From IMG/VR virus record IMGVR_UViG_3300017783_000144, positions 1 through 28,995 of that record: 28,995 nt of DNA; one strand, 5' to 3'. This DNA is from a virus. Of the stretch, positions 4,591-24,615 are shown in pieces; the stretch's first letter is position 1; every line of letters starts with the position of its first letter. A model generated the notes under the pieces. The model was not told the origin of the DNA and made no database searches. It saw nothing but the letters and a program-made list of their open reading frames with translations. The position numbers were made by a program, and so were the translations under genes.

Positions 4591-5048
4591 TATACTTGAA
4601 ATGTTGGTGATTGTGGTGTAGAAATACTCAGTGTTGCTCTAGCAGAATGAACTACTGGATCGTGATATTCTCCTGCTGAAATGTATAAAGTATCACCAGG
4701 TTCTACAAAATATTCAGATCCATCATCAAATTTATAAGAGACTTTTCCAATAGCACCAACGATCAAAACATTTACGTTATCATTATGTCTTCCAAAAGTA
4801 TTGGCAGATTTAGCAAATGAAGTATATACATGACAACTACTTGTCACCCAATCCTTTTCAATCTCTTTTACTGCATTAAAAATACTTATTGGTAGATTCC
4901 CATTATGTAAGATAATTGTTGGTGCGTTTGTAGAATTAAACTGGGATGTACAAGTTTCAAGTTCAAACTCATTTTCCATCTTTTTGATGACATCATCCCA
5001 TGTTATCTGTTTTGCTAATTGATATTTATTTTTACTGAATATAACCAT
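4590..5048 (-). CDS. Cupin-superfamily (JmjC-like) protein
   Basis: This 152-residue product has a single-domain cupin pattern. FGRHNDNVNVLIVG at about residues 85-98 supplies an HxD pair (His88, Asp90), FVEPGDTLYISAGEYH at about 114-129 supplies the distal His129, and His134 follows. This is the metal-binding order of JmjC-type hydroxylases and other cupins. The substrate is unknown. I start at the ATG at 5048, a 17-base overlap with the upstream protease-like gene; an upstream ATG at 5129 would lie deep inside that gene. It is followed at once by a 2OG oxygenase. Fe(II)-dependent hydroxylation is plausible but not shown. Confidence 0.6.
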   Translation of the reverse strand: MVIFSKNKYQLAKQITWDDVIKKMENEFELETCTSQFNSTNAPTIILHNGNLPISIFNAVKEIEKDWVTSSCHVYTSFAKSANTFGRHNDNVNVLIVGAIGKVSYKFDDGSEYFVEPGDTLYISAGEYHDPVVHSARATLSISTPQSPTFQV

Positions 5049-5709
5049 GATCTTCAAGATACTTACGAGTAAGTGGTGTTGGGTCATAAACTTCCCACAT
5101 ATTACCACCAGCACATGCCGCAAGAGCATTCATAGTCATGTTCTCTGTTCTACCTGCCCACTGTGCTTCTGCTTCCCAGGGAACAGCAGACTCAGGATAT
5201 GTACGCTCTACTAATACACGCCAAATCATAGGAACTTCATCCTCTGGTTTGATGATGGCAATCAGACTGTTGTCAATCGTACCTGCCATACAATCTTGTG
5301 CAGCGTGCCATCCTTCGTGACGCATCACCATCATTAGGACTGCAGGATCACCCATAAAGTCCTTGTTCAAAAAGAAGTTGTTACTTACAGTATGATATAC
5401 ACCACGGTGCATACTTGGGAAATACTTTGAATCAGCAAGGAATACATTGACTCCAATTTGATTCAGTGAGTGTAGAATGTTATGGAACTCACCAGTCACA
5501 CTAGTAAAGTCTTCCATATCATTATAATTGGATGAGATGTCAAGCATAGAATTTACCTTGACTACATCATCAGTGCATTCTCCAAGTAACATACACCCCA
5601 TAGCATGTGGTGTATTGTATTCACTATCTTTGAGGGGATCTGCCAATACAGGAGAAGATACTCCCAAGAGACTGATAGTCAGAAGCGCATTAATAAATTT
5701 GTTGTTCAT
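5032..5709 (-). CDS. Exported HEXXH metallopeptidase-like protein
   Basis: The 225-residue protein begins with a Sec signal (MNNKFINALLTISLLGVSSP, likely cleaved after VLA). A HEGWH motif lies at residues 131-135 inside the helix-like segment VLMMVMRHEGWHAAQ, and WEAEAQW follows at 178-184. That is the HEXXH plus downstream Glu arrangement of gluzincin-type zinc peptidases. Several Cys residues fit an oxidising periplasm. The family is not identified further. The start at 5709 was chosen because the frame upstream lies inside tRNA-Val and the signal peptide begins here. No good ribosome-binding site is visible. It could act in the host periplasm on envelope proteins. Confidence 0.6.
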   Translation of the reverse strand: MNNKFINALLTISLLGVSSPVLADPLKDSEYNTPHAMGCMLLGECTDDVVKVNSMLDISSNYNDMEDFTSVTGEFHNILHSLNQIGVNVFLADSKYFPSMHRGVYHTVSNNFFLNKDFMGDPAVLMMVMRHEGWHAAQDCMAGTIDNSLIAIIKPEDEVPMIWRVLVERTYPESAVPWEAEAQWAGRTENMTMNALAACAGGNMWEVYDPTPLTRKYLEDHGYIQ

Positions 5710-5725
5710 AATAATAAATTGAACA

Positions 5726-5797
5726 TGGGCGAAGAGGGGATCGAACCCCCGACAATCTCCGTGTAAAGGAGGCACTCTACCGCTGAGTTATTCGCCC
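5726..5797 (-). tRNA. tRNA-Val (anticodon TAC)
   Basis: The minus strand folds well. Acceptor GGGCGAA (5797-5791) pairs fully with TTCGCCC (5733-5727), with an A discriminator. The D-arm is ACTC...GAGT. The anticodon stem CTCC/GGAG encloses TTTACAC, so the anticodon is TAC. The T-arm GGGGG/CCCTC encloses TTCGATC. The first base is also the last base of the CpeT stop codon (TAG). Confidence 0.92.
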
Positions 5798-15416: not shown

Positions 15417-16355
15417 TTGGCCAATTTTAGATACCCACTCCAACCACCAGTAGTATCAGATAGTTTGGCCGATGGTGGTACTGATCTTACTGACTATGTA
15501 GTATTCCAAAGAAAGAGAATTTTATACGAAGATAACTCTAAAGGTTATTATGGATTAAATCTACCAGGCAATAAAGTATCTACTAAAAAAGATCCGAATA
15601 GAGTTTATCTGGCAATGCCACCGCAGTTACAAACTGCATATCAACCTGGATATAGAAATGTTGATTTGGGAGTTGCAGGTATGGCGTTGTCGAATCTTGG
15701 AATGGATGTCTTAAAAAAAGGTTACGACCTTGATCAACTTACTACGCTTGTTCAAGAAACTGCAGGTGCTATTGCTCCCGAATTTACTGCAGGAGCATTA
15801 GCAGGTCTTGCCAATAGTGCAAGTCAAGCATTAGGTTTGGCGGGAAATATTGATTCTAATGCACTTGCTCAATTATCAGGAGGGAAGGTATTCAATCCAT
15901 ATACAGAGCAATTGTTCAGTAATATGGCATTTAGAACACATTCTTTCAATTTTAAGATGTTTTCTAGAAGTCCTGCCGAGGCACGAGAAGTCAATCGTAT
16001 TATCAGATACTTTAAAGAAGGTGCTACACCAATTATTGGTGGTGATGATGCTCTGAGTGCTAGATTTATGGAAGTTCCTGATAAATTTGATATTAAGTTT
16101 ATCAGATTAGATCCATCTTCAGGATCATTTACAGAAAGTGCAGATCTACACTTCAAAATCTTCTTATCAGTATGCAAGGGTGTTACTGTTAATTATGCTC
16201 CAGATGGACAATACAATGCATTTAGAAGTCCTGATTTAGGAGTAGATTCTTCAGATGGACCTGTTCCTGGTGTTCAGGTGCCAGCAGTTACTTTACAACT
16301 GTCATTTGCAGAAACCAGATTCGTATCCCAAGCAGATATCTCTAAAGGTTATTAA
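15417..16355 (+). CDS. 48: Tail tube cap/baseplate protein gp48
   Basis: The 312-residue protein starts with TTG at 15417 (AGGTG lies 5 bases upstream; no ATG fits the frame). It opens MANFRYPLQPPVVSD, then TDYVVFQRKRILYED. The gp48 hallmark NPYTEQLFSNMAFRTHSFNF plus FKMFSRSPAEAREVNRIIRYF is at about residues 160-205. The C-terminal strand set includes PAVTLQLSFAETRFVSQADI. T4 gp48 (364 residues) sits on the hub as the platform for tail-tube polymerisation and interacts with gp54. It is the first plus-strand gene after a long minus-strand block and is followed one base later by gp53. Confidence 0.85.
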   Translation: MANFRYPLQPPVVSDSLADGGTDLTDYVVFQRKRILYEDNSKGYYGLNLPGNKVSTKKDPNRVYLAMPPQLQTAYQPGYRNVDLGVAGMALSNLGMDVLKKGYDLDQLTTLVQETAGAIAPEFTAGALAGLANSASQALGLAGNIDSNALAQLSGGKVFNPYTEQLFSNMAFRTHSFNFKMFSRSPAEAREVNRIIRYFKEGATPIIGGDDALSARFMEVPDKFDIKFIRLDPSSGSFTESADLHFKIFLSVCKGVTVNYAPDGQYNAFRSPDLGVDSSDGPVPGVQVPAVTLQLSFAETRFVSQADISKGY

Positions 16356-16356
16356 T

Positions 16357-17274
16357 ATGTCTTATTTTTCATATTTCCCAAACGTTTATATTGGCGAAGG
16401 CATTACTGATAATGAGACCTTCAAATATCGTCTGACTAAAAATATTTTTAGAAAAGTAAAAGCACGAGACGATCTTAATCAATATGTAACTCTGTTTGAA
16501 GCATATAGCATCAAACCAGATGAAACCCCATCTTCATTAGCACAAACATTCTTTCAAGATCCTCATTTAGATTGGATCATACTATTAGTCAATGAAATTA
16601 TCGATTTGTATGATCAGTGGCCTAAAAATCAACAAGATTTGATAGACTATGTTAATGAAAAGTATCAAAATCCTGATACGATACATCATTACGAAACTAA
16701 TGAGATTTTAAGTAATGGTGATGTATTTGTTAAATCAGGAATTCAAGTAACTGAAGACTATTCTATTGAACTTCCAGATGGAAGTTTGGTCGCTGGTGAT
16801 AATGCACGATATCCACTTACAAATTATGAATATGAATATCAACAAAATGAATTGAAAAGGCAAATTGTAATTCCACAATCTTCATTGTTAGATCTCTTTA
16901 TAGAAGACTTTGAGGACCTTGTAGGATATGAACCTCATTCAGAACTTGACGAATTTAACAATAAAAAAACTCCTCTTAATATAGCATCACGCTTCTTGAA
17001 TAATACTGGTAGTGCAAGTTATCAGAATCAAGGTGTAACTACTCCACAGAATGGTGGTGGCGGTGCTGTAACTTTTGACAACGGTGTTTCTGTTTCCAAT
17101 TCTAGTCCTGCAGTCGGTGTTTCGATTGATGTTTCCAATTCAGGATCCGTTTCTGCAGTCGTACAAACCGCTGGTACTGTATCGACCAGTCCATCACCTT
17201 CACCGTCACCTTCACCATCTCCTTCTCCAAGTCCATCACCAAGTCCATCACCAGGTTACGGCGGTGGATACTAA
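16357..17274 (+). CDS. 53: Baseplate wedge protein gp53 with (Ser-Pro)11 tail
   Basis: The 305-residue protein begins MSYFSYFPNVYIGEG and has the gp53 pattern NIFRKVKARDDLNQYVTLFEAYSIKPD..., then SLAQTFFQDPHLDWIILLVN and YDQWPKNQQDLIDYV. The ATG at 16357 is preceded by AAAGG 9 bases upstream and lies one base after the gp48 stop. T4 gp53 is 196 residues and joins six wedges around the hub. The extra C-terminal 100 residues here are Gly, Ser and Val-rich and end in eleven Ser-Pro pairs plus GYGGGY. That looks like a flexible linker or exposed tail; its function is unknown. Confidence 0.85.
   Translation: MSYFSYFPNVYIGEGITDNETFKYRLTKNIFRKVKARDDLNQYVTLFEAYSIKPDETPSSLAQTFFQDPHLDWIILLVNEIIDLYDQWPKNQQDLIDYVNEKYQNPDTIHHYETNEILSNGDVFVKSGIQVTEDYSIELPDGSLVAGDNARYPLTNYEYEYQQNELKRQIVIPQSSLLDLFIEDFEDLVGYEPHSELDEFNNKKTPLNIASRFLNNTGSASYQNQGVTTPQNGGGGAVTFDNGVSVSNSSPAVGVSIDVSNSGSVSAVVQTAGTVSTSPSPSPSPSPSPSPSPSPSPSPGYGGGY
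17188..17253 (+). repeat. (Ser-Pro)11 low-complexity repeat in gp53
   Basis: Twenty-two codons alternate Ser and Pro, using TCA/AGT/TCT and CCA/CCT/CCG. Synonymous variation shows that the protein repeat, rather than a DNA slippage tract alone, is kept. The last part contains a near-exact 12-base duplication (AGTCCATCACCA, twice). Confidence 0.9.
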
Positions 17275-17514: not shown

Positions 17515-17934
17515 TTAACCTCCATCAACCTGGCATCCTACCAGTGCTCCACCGACAATGCCAAGAGGGATCGCCCAGAGGCGTCCTTCTTTACGAGACA
17601 ATGCTGCAGCACCACCTCCACCTGCGATAGCACCTAAGACTCCTCCTTCAATACAAGAATTGTCATCTGTATTGTGTTTCCTAGGAGCATCATCACGACG
17701 ATAGACTTCACGATTACAAGGAACTTCTACTCGCTCTTTATATGATGAGACATATCCAGGAGACTTAGATGTGCCAGGAATATACTCTTCGCGGTATTCA
17801 TTACGATAGCATCTGTTCTCTGAAGCATATCCTCTTTGAGAATTATATGCTTGACGGTTACTTCGGTCACCAATACTCTCTGCGCTAACAGGCAGAGCAG
17901 AGAGCAGCATCATTGTAGCGAGTACAAGTTTCAT
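17515..17934 (-). CDS. Exported glycine-zipper protein
   Basis: The 139-residue product has a Sec signal (MKLVLATMMLLSALPVSA, cleaved before ES). A charged, Arg and Tyr-rich middle with two Cys (NRCYRNEYREEYIPG, RVEVPCNREVYRR) follows. A C-terminal glycine-zipper pair (GGVLGAIAGGGGAAALS and WAIPLGIVGGALVGC) at about residues 97-135 resembles the 2TM glycine-zipper segment of 17-kDa-type surface antigens. No lipobox is seen, so it is probably periplasmic or membrane-inserted. Its ATG shares one base with the gp32 stop (TGATG). A role in host envelope change is inferred only. Confidence 0.65.
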   Translation of the reverse strand: MKLVLATMMLLSALPVSAESIGDRSNRQAYNSQRGYASENRCYRNEYREEYIPGTSKSPGYVSSYKERVEVPCNREVYRRDDAPRKHNTDDNSCIEGGVLGAIAGGGGAAALSRKEGRLWAIPLGIVGGALVGCQVDGG

Positions 17935-23757: not shown

Positions 23758-23764
23758 TATTTAG
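23758..23764 (-). promoter_or_regulatory. Late-type box CTAAATA at the glutaredoxin stop
   Basis: The minus strand reads CTAAATA, built from the last codon and TAA of glutaredoxin. The next ATG is 64 bases downstream (23694). The motif recurs at several gene ends here. Distance and the lack of other elements make this weaker than the boxes at 4007 and 14175. Confidence 0.35.
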
Positions 23765-23997
23765 ATTAGATTTTGCTCTCTTAGATATTTGACTGCCTCA
23801 GTACATCCTCCAATCTTCTTAGAGTCTAACAGTACTTGAGGGAAAGTGCTACCCTGACCAAACTCTTTATAAAAATCTTCTCTTTTAAAATGAACATCTA
23901 ATTGATATTCAGTATAAGAATGATTTTTAGCAGAAAGAACTTGCTTAATTTTAGTGCAGTAAGGACAACCAGTTCTGGTATAAATTGCAAAATTCAT
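23761..23997 (-). CDS. grx: Glutaredoxin
   Basis: The 78-residue protein is a complete small glutaredoxin: NFAIYTRTGCPYCTKIKQVL with a CPYC dithiol active site (Cys11, Cys14), STFPQVLLDSKKIGG with the cis-Pro loop, and a GG-C-TEA segment for glutathione binding. It is likely to reduce protein or ribonucleotide reductase disulfides. The start at 23997 has GGAGAAAATT upstream; a longer frame from 24081 runs through the terminator at 24011 and is rejected. It lies just after that terminator, so its own promoter or readthrough is needed. Confidence 0.92.
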   Translation of the reverse strand: MNFAIYTRTGCPYCTKIKQVLSAKNHSYTEYQLDVHFKREDFYKEFGQGSTFPQVLLDSKKIGGCTEAVKYLREQNLI

Positions 23998-24010
23998 AAT
24001 TTTCTCCGAA

Positions 24011-24034
24011 TAAAAAAGGACCTCACTGAGGTCC
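24011..24034 (-). terminator. Rho-independent terminator after the beta-barrel gene
   Basis: On the minus strand, GGACCTC (24034-24028) pairs with GAGGTCC (24024-24018) around a 3-base loop, followed at once by TTTTTTA. This 7-bp GC-rich stem plus U-tract is the most canonical terminator in the window. It closes the unit with the gene at 24093-24464. A second hairpin (GAGACC/GGTCTC, 24057-24076) lies between them, without a U-tract. Confidence 0.88.
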
Positions 24035-24092
24035 CATGGGTGTTCCGACTTTTGTAGAGACCGCACGAAAGGTCTCCACATTATTTAGTGAA

Positions 24093-24464
24093 TCAGAAGG
24101 AATACTTCAGACCCAATTTTGTTCCATAACCGCGATCGATGTCGCTGTCGCCACTGCCCACGAAGGAGACTTCACCATAAGCACCGAGAGCATCGGTCAA
24201 ACCGATACCAACGCCTGCCTTACCAGAAGGAACGGTGTCGCTCTCGCCACCATCGGGGGAGACTACGGTAGCACCTCCCTGGACGTAGTACGAGGCAGAC
24301 TCACCAAGAGCGCCTTCGTAACCTACGTGAAGATCTGTAGCGGTTCCATTGTAGCTGGATCCCGTGAAACCTGAGTTGGCTTCCACATTAACGTAGGGAC
24401 CAGCGAATGCAGCGCCAGCAGATGCGAACAGAGCAGCAGTTGCTGCGAATACAGTTTTGATCAT
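24093..24464 (-). CDS. Exported outer-membrane beta-barrel-like protein
   Basis: The 123-residue product has a Sec signal (MIKTVFAATAALFASAGAAF, cleaved near AFA/GPY). About 100 residues of alternating polar and hydrophobic strands follow (YVNVEANSGF, DLHVGYEGAL, ASYYVQGGATVV, AGVGIGLTDALGAYGEVSFVG, GTKLGLKYSF). The last strand ends in Tyr-Ser-Phe; a C-terminal aromatic Phe is the signal for outer-membrane barrel assembly. Gly and Ala content and GC are visibly higher than in neighbouring genes. No specific family recognised; small OmpA/OprF-like or opacity-type barrels are alternatives. The gene has its own promoter and terminator. AAAGG lies 13 bases upstream of the ATG. Confidence 0.65.
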   Translation of the reverse strand: MIKTVFAATAALFASAGAAFAGPYVNVEANSGFTGSSYNGTATDLHVGYEGALGESASYYVQGGATVVSPDGGESDTVPSGKAGVGIGLTDALGAYGEVSFVGSGDSDIDRGYGTKLGLKYSF

Positions 24465-24490
24465 TTGAAATTTTACCTTTAAGTATGACT

Positions 24491-24534
24491 CGTGGAGTTG
24501 AACCCACGGATGAAAGAGAGATCGACGTTCTCTC
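24491..24534 (-). other. tRNA-like leader (relic anticodon and T arms)
   Basis: Between the promoter and the beta-barrel ATG, the minus strand shows GAGAGA/TCTCTC around the 7-base loop ACGTCGA (24534-24516), then CGTGG/CCACG around a loop with GTTCAAC (24508-24491). That order and spacing imitate an anticodon arm and T-arm. No D-arm or acceptor stem can be built, and the T-stem appears one base short. It is a decayed tRNA or a folded mRNA leader. Confidence 0.45.
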
Positions 24535-24543
24535 GTTGGATTA

Positions 24544-24572
24544 AGTATAACACATTCTGCCGTCTTTGGCAA
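24544..24572 (-). promoter_or_regulatory. Early promoter, sigma70-like (TTGCCA-N17-TATACT)
   Basis: On the minus strand, TTGCCA (24572-24567) is followed after 17 bases by TATACT (24549-24544). That is 5/6 and 5/6 to consensus with ideal spacing. The predicted leader to the ATG at 24464 is about 73 bases and contains the two hairpins. Confidence 0.75.
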
Positions 24573-24607: not shown

Positions 24608-24615
24608 TATTTAGG
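24608..24615 (-). promoter_or_regulatory. Late-type box CCTAAATA upstream of the beta-barrel unit
   Basis: The minus strand reads TTAACACCTAAATA (24621-24608), the same 14 bases as upstream of gp4. It lies 36 bases before the sigma70 -35 box, giving the unit a second, late-type signal. Confidence 0.45.

Follow-up and report, generated by a model that had tools for sequence, protein, structure and literature searches.

Structured RNAs known in cyanophages include CFrI, PhotoRC-II, wcaG, manA and glnA/glutamine (PMC9602691, PMC10665884, PMC2864571), and PhotoRC-II, wcaG, manA and the glnA/glutamine riboswitches form structured 5′ leaders before accessory genes (PMC2864571, PMC9602691, PMC10665884), as does the RNA described here. 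Each of them is linked to genes other than the outer membrane protein (OMP) gene of cyanophages, and none matches the leader of that gene in Rfam scans. A second point of comparison is the phage moron, with which the OMP gene shares a self-contained make-up, mobility of position, a higher GC content and, going by published work, an apparent dispensability in a laboratory host (PMC6224464). Unlike morons, the OMP gene occurs in nearly all cyanomyoviruses examined rather than sporadically and has no host source that could be found, and its carriers are lytic phages whereas morons belong to prophages. The reading that we favour, and hold to be fairly probable, is that of an accessory cyanophage OMP gene that is exchanged between lineages and whose expression a new structured 5′ leader RNA controls in cis.

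The window, by which we mean the whole stretch of DNA analysed, is a viral metagenome record of 28,995 bases, and its OMP region is 99–100% identical to Synechococcus phage ACG-2014a (Kyanoviridae, Acionnavirus). The genes are ordered PA14 protein, small ORFs, OMP gene, nrdC, small ORFs, thyX and phoH, an arrangement that recurs with variations in several genera. A preliminary description, made from the sequence alone, had proposed a moron-like, self-contained cassette at this place, and a promoter, a leader, a gene and a terminator of its own are indeed present at the sequence level (Table 1). The mechanically called ORF of the OMP gene starts at TTG 24572 and crosses the leader by chance; since the frame is closed immediately 5′ of the ATG in several relatives, the leader is noncoding. 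Elsewhere in the window, a homologue of baseplate wedge gp53 (E 4.7e-9) with a long Ser-Pro repeat tail lies at 16342–17274 (+), and two further proteins have signal-peptide-like starts (17515–17934 and 5032–5775 (-)), one with a weak glycine-zipper (Rick_17kDa_Anti) match just under the cut-off and one without a Pfam match.

Table 1. Sequence features of the OMP locus, in window coordinates and in order of transcription
Feature	Position	Strand	Basis or remark
Degenerate late-promoter-like site CCTAAATA	24608..24615	-	6 of 8 match by reading; aligned with TATAAATA in relatives
-35 element TTGCCA	24567..24572	-	promoter pattern search
-10 element TATACT, extended (TG); predicted transcript start about 24537	24544..24549	-	spacing to leader recurs in relatives
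Conserved structured leader RNA (model R1 match, 70.5 bits)	24479..24541	-	comparative model
Hairpin 1: GAGAGA - ACGUCGA - UCUCUC	24516..24534	-	stem covaries; loop GUCG near-constant
CAUC linker, near-invariant	24509..24512	-	AUC invariant, C 90% or more
Hairpin 2: CGUGGG - UUCAAC - UCCACG	24491..24508	-	99.8% of cells paired; U-A/C-G and G-C/A-U swaps
Shine-Dalgarno-like AAAGG	24476..24480	-	sequence
Phage OMP gene, 123 aa, PF24653 / phrog_417 / T4-GC 241 / PhCOG173 ('DUF680')	24093..24464	-	ATG 24464, stop 24093; profile and homology searches
Signal peptide, residues 1–21 (AFA|GPYV)	24402..24464	-	sequence; A21 G22 P23 Y24 invariant in 76 relatives; low pLDDT 1–19
Intrinsic terminator GGGACCTCAGTGAGGTCC + TTTTTT	24017..24035	-	8 bp, 5 GC pairs, loop of 3, T run

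The boundaries of this unit recur across the family. The terminator, earlier called the most canonical in the window, is the best in its entire length, and terminator-like sites were found 3′ of the OMP gene in 211 of 304 relatives, against 5 in shuffled sequences. The window promoter (TTGCCA-17-TATACT with TG) matches the consensus at 10 of 12 positions, while matches of the same class are no commoner in the window than in shuffles (47 vs 41.8). Among 236 distinct upstream regions of OMP relatives, selected by the presence of CATC[CT]G, early-type promoters were found in 78 (21.7 when shuffled), with a peak 29–34 nt 5′ of the leader CAUC, corresponding to a start a few bases ahead of hairpin 1; the window promoter thus has the backing of its relatives. 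The T4-type late promoter TATAAATA occurs within 230 nt upstream in 129 of the 236, compared with 3.1 when shuffled, and both types are present in 29. The near-consensus early promoter proposed for the cassette stands for the window, but relatives often have a late promoter or both, and the late type is the commoner one in the family; the RNA stays constant while the promoters change. A Pho box (CTTAN7CTTA) was found upstream of the OMP gene in 1 of the 236 regions, the same as in shuffles, so that the published Pho link was not seen with this pattern, and an NtcA-like pattern is mildly enriched (26 vs about 14). A further DNA element, AACTGNCACAAGG, occurs in 58 of the loci collected, never more than once in any of them and mostly 60–145 nt 5′ of CAUC (for example L002 2797–2809 and L004 2884–2896, outside the window), with 0–2 copies per whole phage genome; it is perhaps a candidate activator site. 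Next to the terminator, the nrdC gene (glutaredoxin/NrdC, 23761–24081 in the window) has a deposited start in ACG-2014a (locus L001 5399) that lies upstream of the terminator, while the conserved reading MNFAIYTRTGCPYC starts at about 23996, directly behind the terminator, and has a GGAG of its own; the annotated nrdC N-terminus in ACG-2014a is therefore probably wrong.

Besides the greater frequency of late promoters in the family, what the preliminary description missed is that the leader is a conserved RNA. Upstream regions at unrelated loci have nothing recognisable in common apart from a block some 70 nt 5′ of the ATG, which in the consensus of 68 aligned leaders consists of hairpin 1, a near-invariant CAUC, hairpin 2 and then AG. 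The stem of hairpin 1 is usually 5–8 bp long and varies freely in sequence under a loop that usually contains GUCG, and hairpin 2 follows the consensus YGYRGG...YCYRCR with a near-invariant G-U pair, which among the 12 leader pairs points to RNA. Across the 68 leaders 97.0% of cells are paired (79.2% when shuffled, at most 58.6% when partners are slid), two-sided changes number 171 against 47.5 ± 11.5 in shuffles, and the covariation score is 0.529 against 0.229 ± 0.011 shuffled and a maximum of 0.207 slid. Of the 236 upstream regions, 228 contain hairpin 1 and 231 contain hairpin 2, and three leaders excluded from the model were still matched at 26–35 bits. Conservation also covers unpaired positions, namely CAUC, the GUCG of the hairpin 1 loop and the bases 3′ of hairpin 2; the hairpin 1 loop is not the same in every leader, so the alignment reveals no one invariant binding pocket. 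A kissing-loop dimer via UCGA in hairpin 1 was rejected, the loop being GUCGG in many leaders, and so was a tRNA origin suggested by the likeness of hairpin 2 to a T-arm, ARAGORN and Rfam both finding no tRNA there.

Single-sequence folding of the window leader is unremarkable compared with shuffles (z -0.9), and the folded leader of the preliminary description was therefore not defensible from the window sequence alone; it is the comparative pairing and covariation over the 68 leaders that bear it out. The same low z-score, together with the frequency at which promoter matches of such quality arise by chance, is what would be expected of an ordinary cyanophage hypothetical gene whose promoter, hairpin and terminator came together by chance and without special regulation. 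We give this reading almost no weight, as the covariation, the gene-specific co-occurrence described below and the family-wide terminators and promoters all speak against it, and unless the alignment is wrong the comparative data already refute it.

The leader is also specific. In 19 of 20 myovirus genomes the leader model gave exactly one match per genome, always directly 5′ of the OMP gene and none elsewhere, and it gave no match in ACG-2014f, whose OMP gene is present without the leader RNA, or in three podoviruses. In two further sets of loci, drawn by more distant proteins and with contigs that partly overlap the leader training set, it lies just upstream of the OMP gene in 71 of 75 and 70 of 76 cases, and it was found in none of 66 podovirus-type OMP loci. 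An IMG/VR scan with part of hairpin 2, run without reference to the OMP gene, returned 119 places, 115 of them with the OMP gene just downstream; the other four comprise two truncated OMP genes, one contig edge and one chance match in unrelated DNA. Rfam gave no meaningful match for the window leader at E up to 10 (only a snoRNA at 8.9) and none for the leaders at six other loci at E up to 1, and no report of this RNA was found in the open-access literature, to which the search extended. No Glutamine-II riboswitch (RF01704) scored above gathering in the window, or in the leader at E up to 10. Such riboswitches, with an architecture unlike that of the OMP leader, do occur near the OMP gene in podovirus relatives: just 5′ of it in some (L011 2812–2867, L012 2813–2869, L329, L353 and others), with a short peptide ORF in between at L011 and L012. 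As a general OMP regulator Glutamine-II was rejected, as in podoviruses it lies upstream at some loci and far downstream at others.

A compact, independently folding, single-copy RNA could also function chiefly as a small RNA, or serve as the site at which a phage or host RNA acts in trans, with the OMP gene as its neighbour or target. We consider this very improbable: the leader is always joined to the OMP gene with a short spacing to the ATG, it is absent where the gene is absent (S-PM2), and the leader type of the window has no terminator between leader and gene. By the usual criterion of covariation-supported pairing in a 5′ UTR, with the UTR position taken at the sequence level, the RNA qualifies as a structured cis-regulatory leader, and a new, previously uncatalogued, gene-specific cis-regulatory RNA is the best reading of it.

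A second leader type was found in Prochlorococcus phages. In 47 leaders, including those of P-SSM7 and MED4-213-like phages, GGACUCGAAAGAUCGUAACCCUGCG is added in front, and its CCCUGCG can pair with the 5′ strand of hairpin 2 (CGCAGGG), which makes this alternative helix and hairpin 2 mutually exclusive. The alternative helix reaches at least 6 bp in 44 of the 47 leaders, with at least five U in the next 9 nt in 33; nascent folds of the RNA up to the U-run contain it in 46 of 47, and full-length folds are split 30 versus 17 between the two helices. In its predicted folding the Prochlorococcus-type leader resembles a terminator/antiterminator attenuator. The helix is 91% paired across the 47 leaders and shows no two-sided change, several of these leaders are without a U-run, and the Synechococcus leader type of the window does not show it; a corresponding P0 helix in Synechococcus-type leaders was rejected, at 137 of 189 against 99 shuffled being barely above background. 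The boldest extension of our reading would make the leader a new class of RNA switch that is confined to cyanophages, stands before a single membrane gene and reads the state of the infected cell, with Prochlorococcus phages choosing between premature termination and OMP synthesis and the host surface being remodelled only conditionally. On the sequence comparison available this is a tentative proposal, possible rather than likely.

Hairpins at the 5′ end of an mRNA may also act passively. The 5′ UTR of E. coli ompA is the comparison case, and here too the two hairpins might simply protect the OMP mRNA from RNase E and so make it long-lived and highly translated. Such a stabiliser would fit the predicted start a few bases before hairpin 1 and a stem whose sequence varies while its pairing is kept; the conserved unpaired CAUC, GUCG and bases after hairpin 2 exceed what it would need, the Prochlorococcus type adds a mutually exclusive helix, and the leader is confined to one gene per genome, and we judge it unlikely, if worth retaining. 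Because the alternative helix is without two-sided change, is followed by no U-run in several leaders and is absent from the window type, we rank cis-regulation first and the passive stabiliser second, and hold the new switch class only as the tentative proposal given above.

Under control in cis, the gene would be transcribed from an early and/or a late phage promoter, starting just before hairpin 1 (early) or further upstream (late). With a start at or upstream of hairpin 1, both hairpins and the CAUC between them would precede the ribosome site in the mRNA, and the leader would set OMP output in cis, most likely as a switch acted on by a host or phage factor, be it a protein, a metabolite or an RNA. 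On the one hand, Prochlorococcus-phage leaders may choose between the terminator-like helix with its U-run and hairpin 2. On the other hand, the shorter Synechococcus leader of the window would act through mRNA stability or translation.

The gene itself belongs to a well-delimited family. Its product is a full-length member of Pfam PF24653 (Phage_OMP; E 2.5e-50, 170.2 bits vs a cut-off of 27, residues 1–123 on profile positions 1–122), described as 'cyanophage outer membrane protein like beta barrel domain', and a Pfam scan placed all 76 aligned relatives in the same family. It also falls in PHROG 417, with the function given there as unknown, and bears the GenBank names DUF680, T4-GC 241 and gp222; the product name 'DUF680 domain-containing protein' lacks support, as Pfam scans with the protein and 75 relatives gave no DUF680 match. 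The family entry (PF24653 Phage_OMP, with PHROG 417, T4-GC 241 and PhCOG173), as seen here, makes no mention of a leader RNA. By tblastn the gene was found in 457 cyanophage records, T7-like podoviruses included, and no homologue was found on plasmids. Second, divergent copies (26–36% identity; L009 3550–3906, W08 1841–2188, W22 139189–139536 and L082 3410–3775) are at times in tandem with the first and are without leader RNA; they could form a hetero-oligomer with the first protein.

Both a signal peptide and a C-terminal aromatic beta-signal, the marks of an outer-membrane barrel, were found in the protein: AGPY around the cleavage site is invariant across the 76 diverse relatives, and the C-terminal LGLKYSF includes an invariant F123 and nearly invariant G118 and K120. 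The general OMP_b-brl model (PF13505) is matched weakly by half of the 76 in a Pfam scan. An AlphaFold2 model built on the 76-relative alignment (pLDDT about 71–91 in the mature part, pTM 0.69) has six antiparallel strands (22–34, 37–53, 57–70, 76–88, 93–102 and 112–121), and its nearest solved folds are OmpX (Z 8.9), OprF (Z 8.7), Ail (Z 8.6) and OmpA (Z 8.4), values of a middling size that is common in such fold searches. The best Foldseek E was 0.016, and a sequence search of solved structures returned nothing convincing. With OmpX, OmpA, the OprF N-domain and Ail, to which the structural match extends at Z 8 to 9 over 105–118 residues, the protein has in common a signal peptide, an antiparallel beta meander and a C-terminal Phe; it differs from them in having six predicted strands rather than eight, and sequence homology is limited to the weak PF13505 matches. 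The smallest known single-chain outer-membrane barrels have eight strands. Of the beta-barrel claimed earlier, the model supports an outer-membrane-type sheet with the appropriate signals, and a closed barrel is no more than a possibility with six strands. The protein would be exported and, by its BAM-type C-terminal signal, is expected to enter the host outer membrane during infection. It was detected by two peptides in purified S-SZBM1 particles in one proteomic study (PMC9146016), for which co-purified membrane is an alternative source.

The OMP gene sits in at least six different neighbourhoods across cyanophage genera, namely PA14/nrdC/thyX (ACG-2014a and others), baseplate lysozyme (ACG-2014e, h), hsp20/gp43 (ACG-2014d), tRNA-Gly/hli (Syn1, Sf-CH1a, S-CAM1, S-RIM32), gp24/gp3 (ACG-2014f) and psbA/capsid (podoviruses). 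All 26 near-identical records of ACG-2014a have it in the same place. In the S-PM2 genome neither the gene nor the leader was found, and an S-layer-like gene and T4-GC 355 occupy the tRNA-Gly/hli slot instead; S-PM2d169, phosphate-responsive in PMC10976474, is this T4-GC 355 and was rejected as an OMP gene. Over 18 phages compared with ACG-2014a as reference, identity in gp32 and in OMP is unrelated (Spearman 0.09, p 0.71): ACG-2014e, ACG-2014d, Syn1 and ACG-2014h share 60–63% in gp32 and 89–95% in OMP, P-SSM7 shares 87% and 47%, and S-TIM5, in which no gp32 homologue could be detected, nevertheless shares 80% in OMP. The differing loci, the divergence unrelated to gp32 and the absence from S-PM2 support, in these sequence comparisons, a moron-like unit that is exchanged between cyanophages independently of the backbone. 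The divergence of the leaders shows no relation to that of OMP (rho 0.11) and a weak one to that of gp32 (0.45, p 0.07). The leader and the coding region thus do not always move as one, and strict co-travelling was rejected. Enav et al. (2018) found 13 mutations in the S-TIM4 homologue, many of them disrupting and with a summed frequency near 100%, in every WH8102-evolved population, and no homologue in the bacterial strains of that study (PMC6224464). The presence/absence comparison proposed in the preliminary description thus came out in favour of a moron-like unit, with differing neighbourhoods, absence from S-PM2 and a gene lost or broken in WH8102-passaged S-TIM4 (PMC6224464).

Composition and origin were the other parts of the moron claim. 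The OMP gene does differ in GC content from its surroundings (53.8% vs 38.3% in the window, where the bin 24001–24500 is highest at 50.6%), but GC is above the flanks in 22 of 23 relatives and is a trait of the OMP family everywhere, not a peculiarity of this genome. A host-derived origin is not supported, since a scan of 84,980 species genomes, which reached close relatives and leaves distant host relatives possible, found no cyanobacterial homologue. Its only three OMP matches are metagenome-assembled contigs of non-cyanobacteria, two with the leader; filed as Rhodobacteraceae, Lewinella and Dehalococcoidia (L105, L106 and L107), they are probably stray cyanophage contigs in bins.

Few accessory genes of T4-like cyanophages are as common as the OMP gene; earlier publications connect it with nutrient limitation and show selection against it in one laboratory host. 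As the leader was found only before this gene in the virus genomes checked, it probably controls when the virus makes the OMP membrane protein. Such control would benefit a phage that spares receptors or porins until late, or one that alters uptake under nutrient stress, and the data favour neither use. They likewise speak neither for nor against the block to superinfection or the changed uptake that the preliminary description envisaged. A conserved, gene-specific RNA offers a direct handle on the question, because a factor acting on it would tell when the phage wants the protein. With the leader, the most abundant phages of the main photosynthetic organisms of the ocean gain an RNA family that Rfam lacks.
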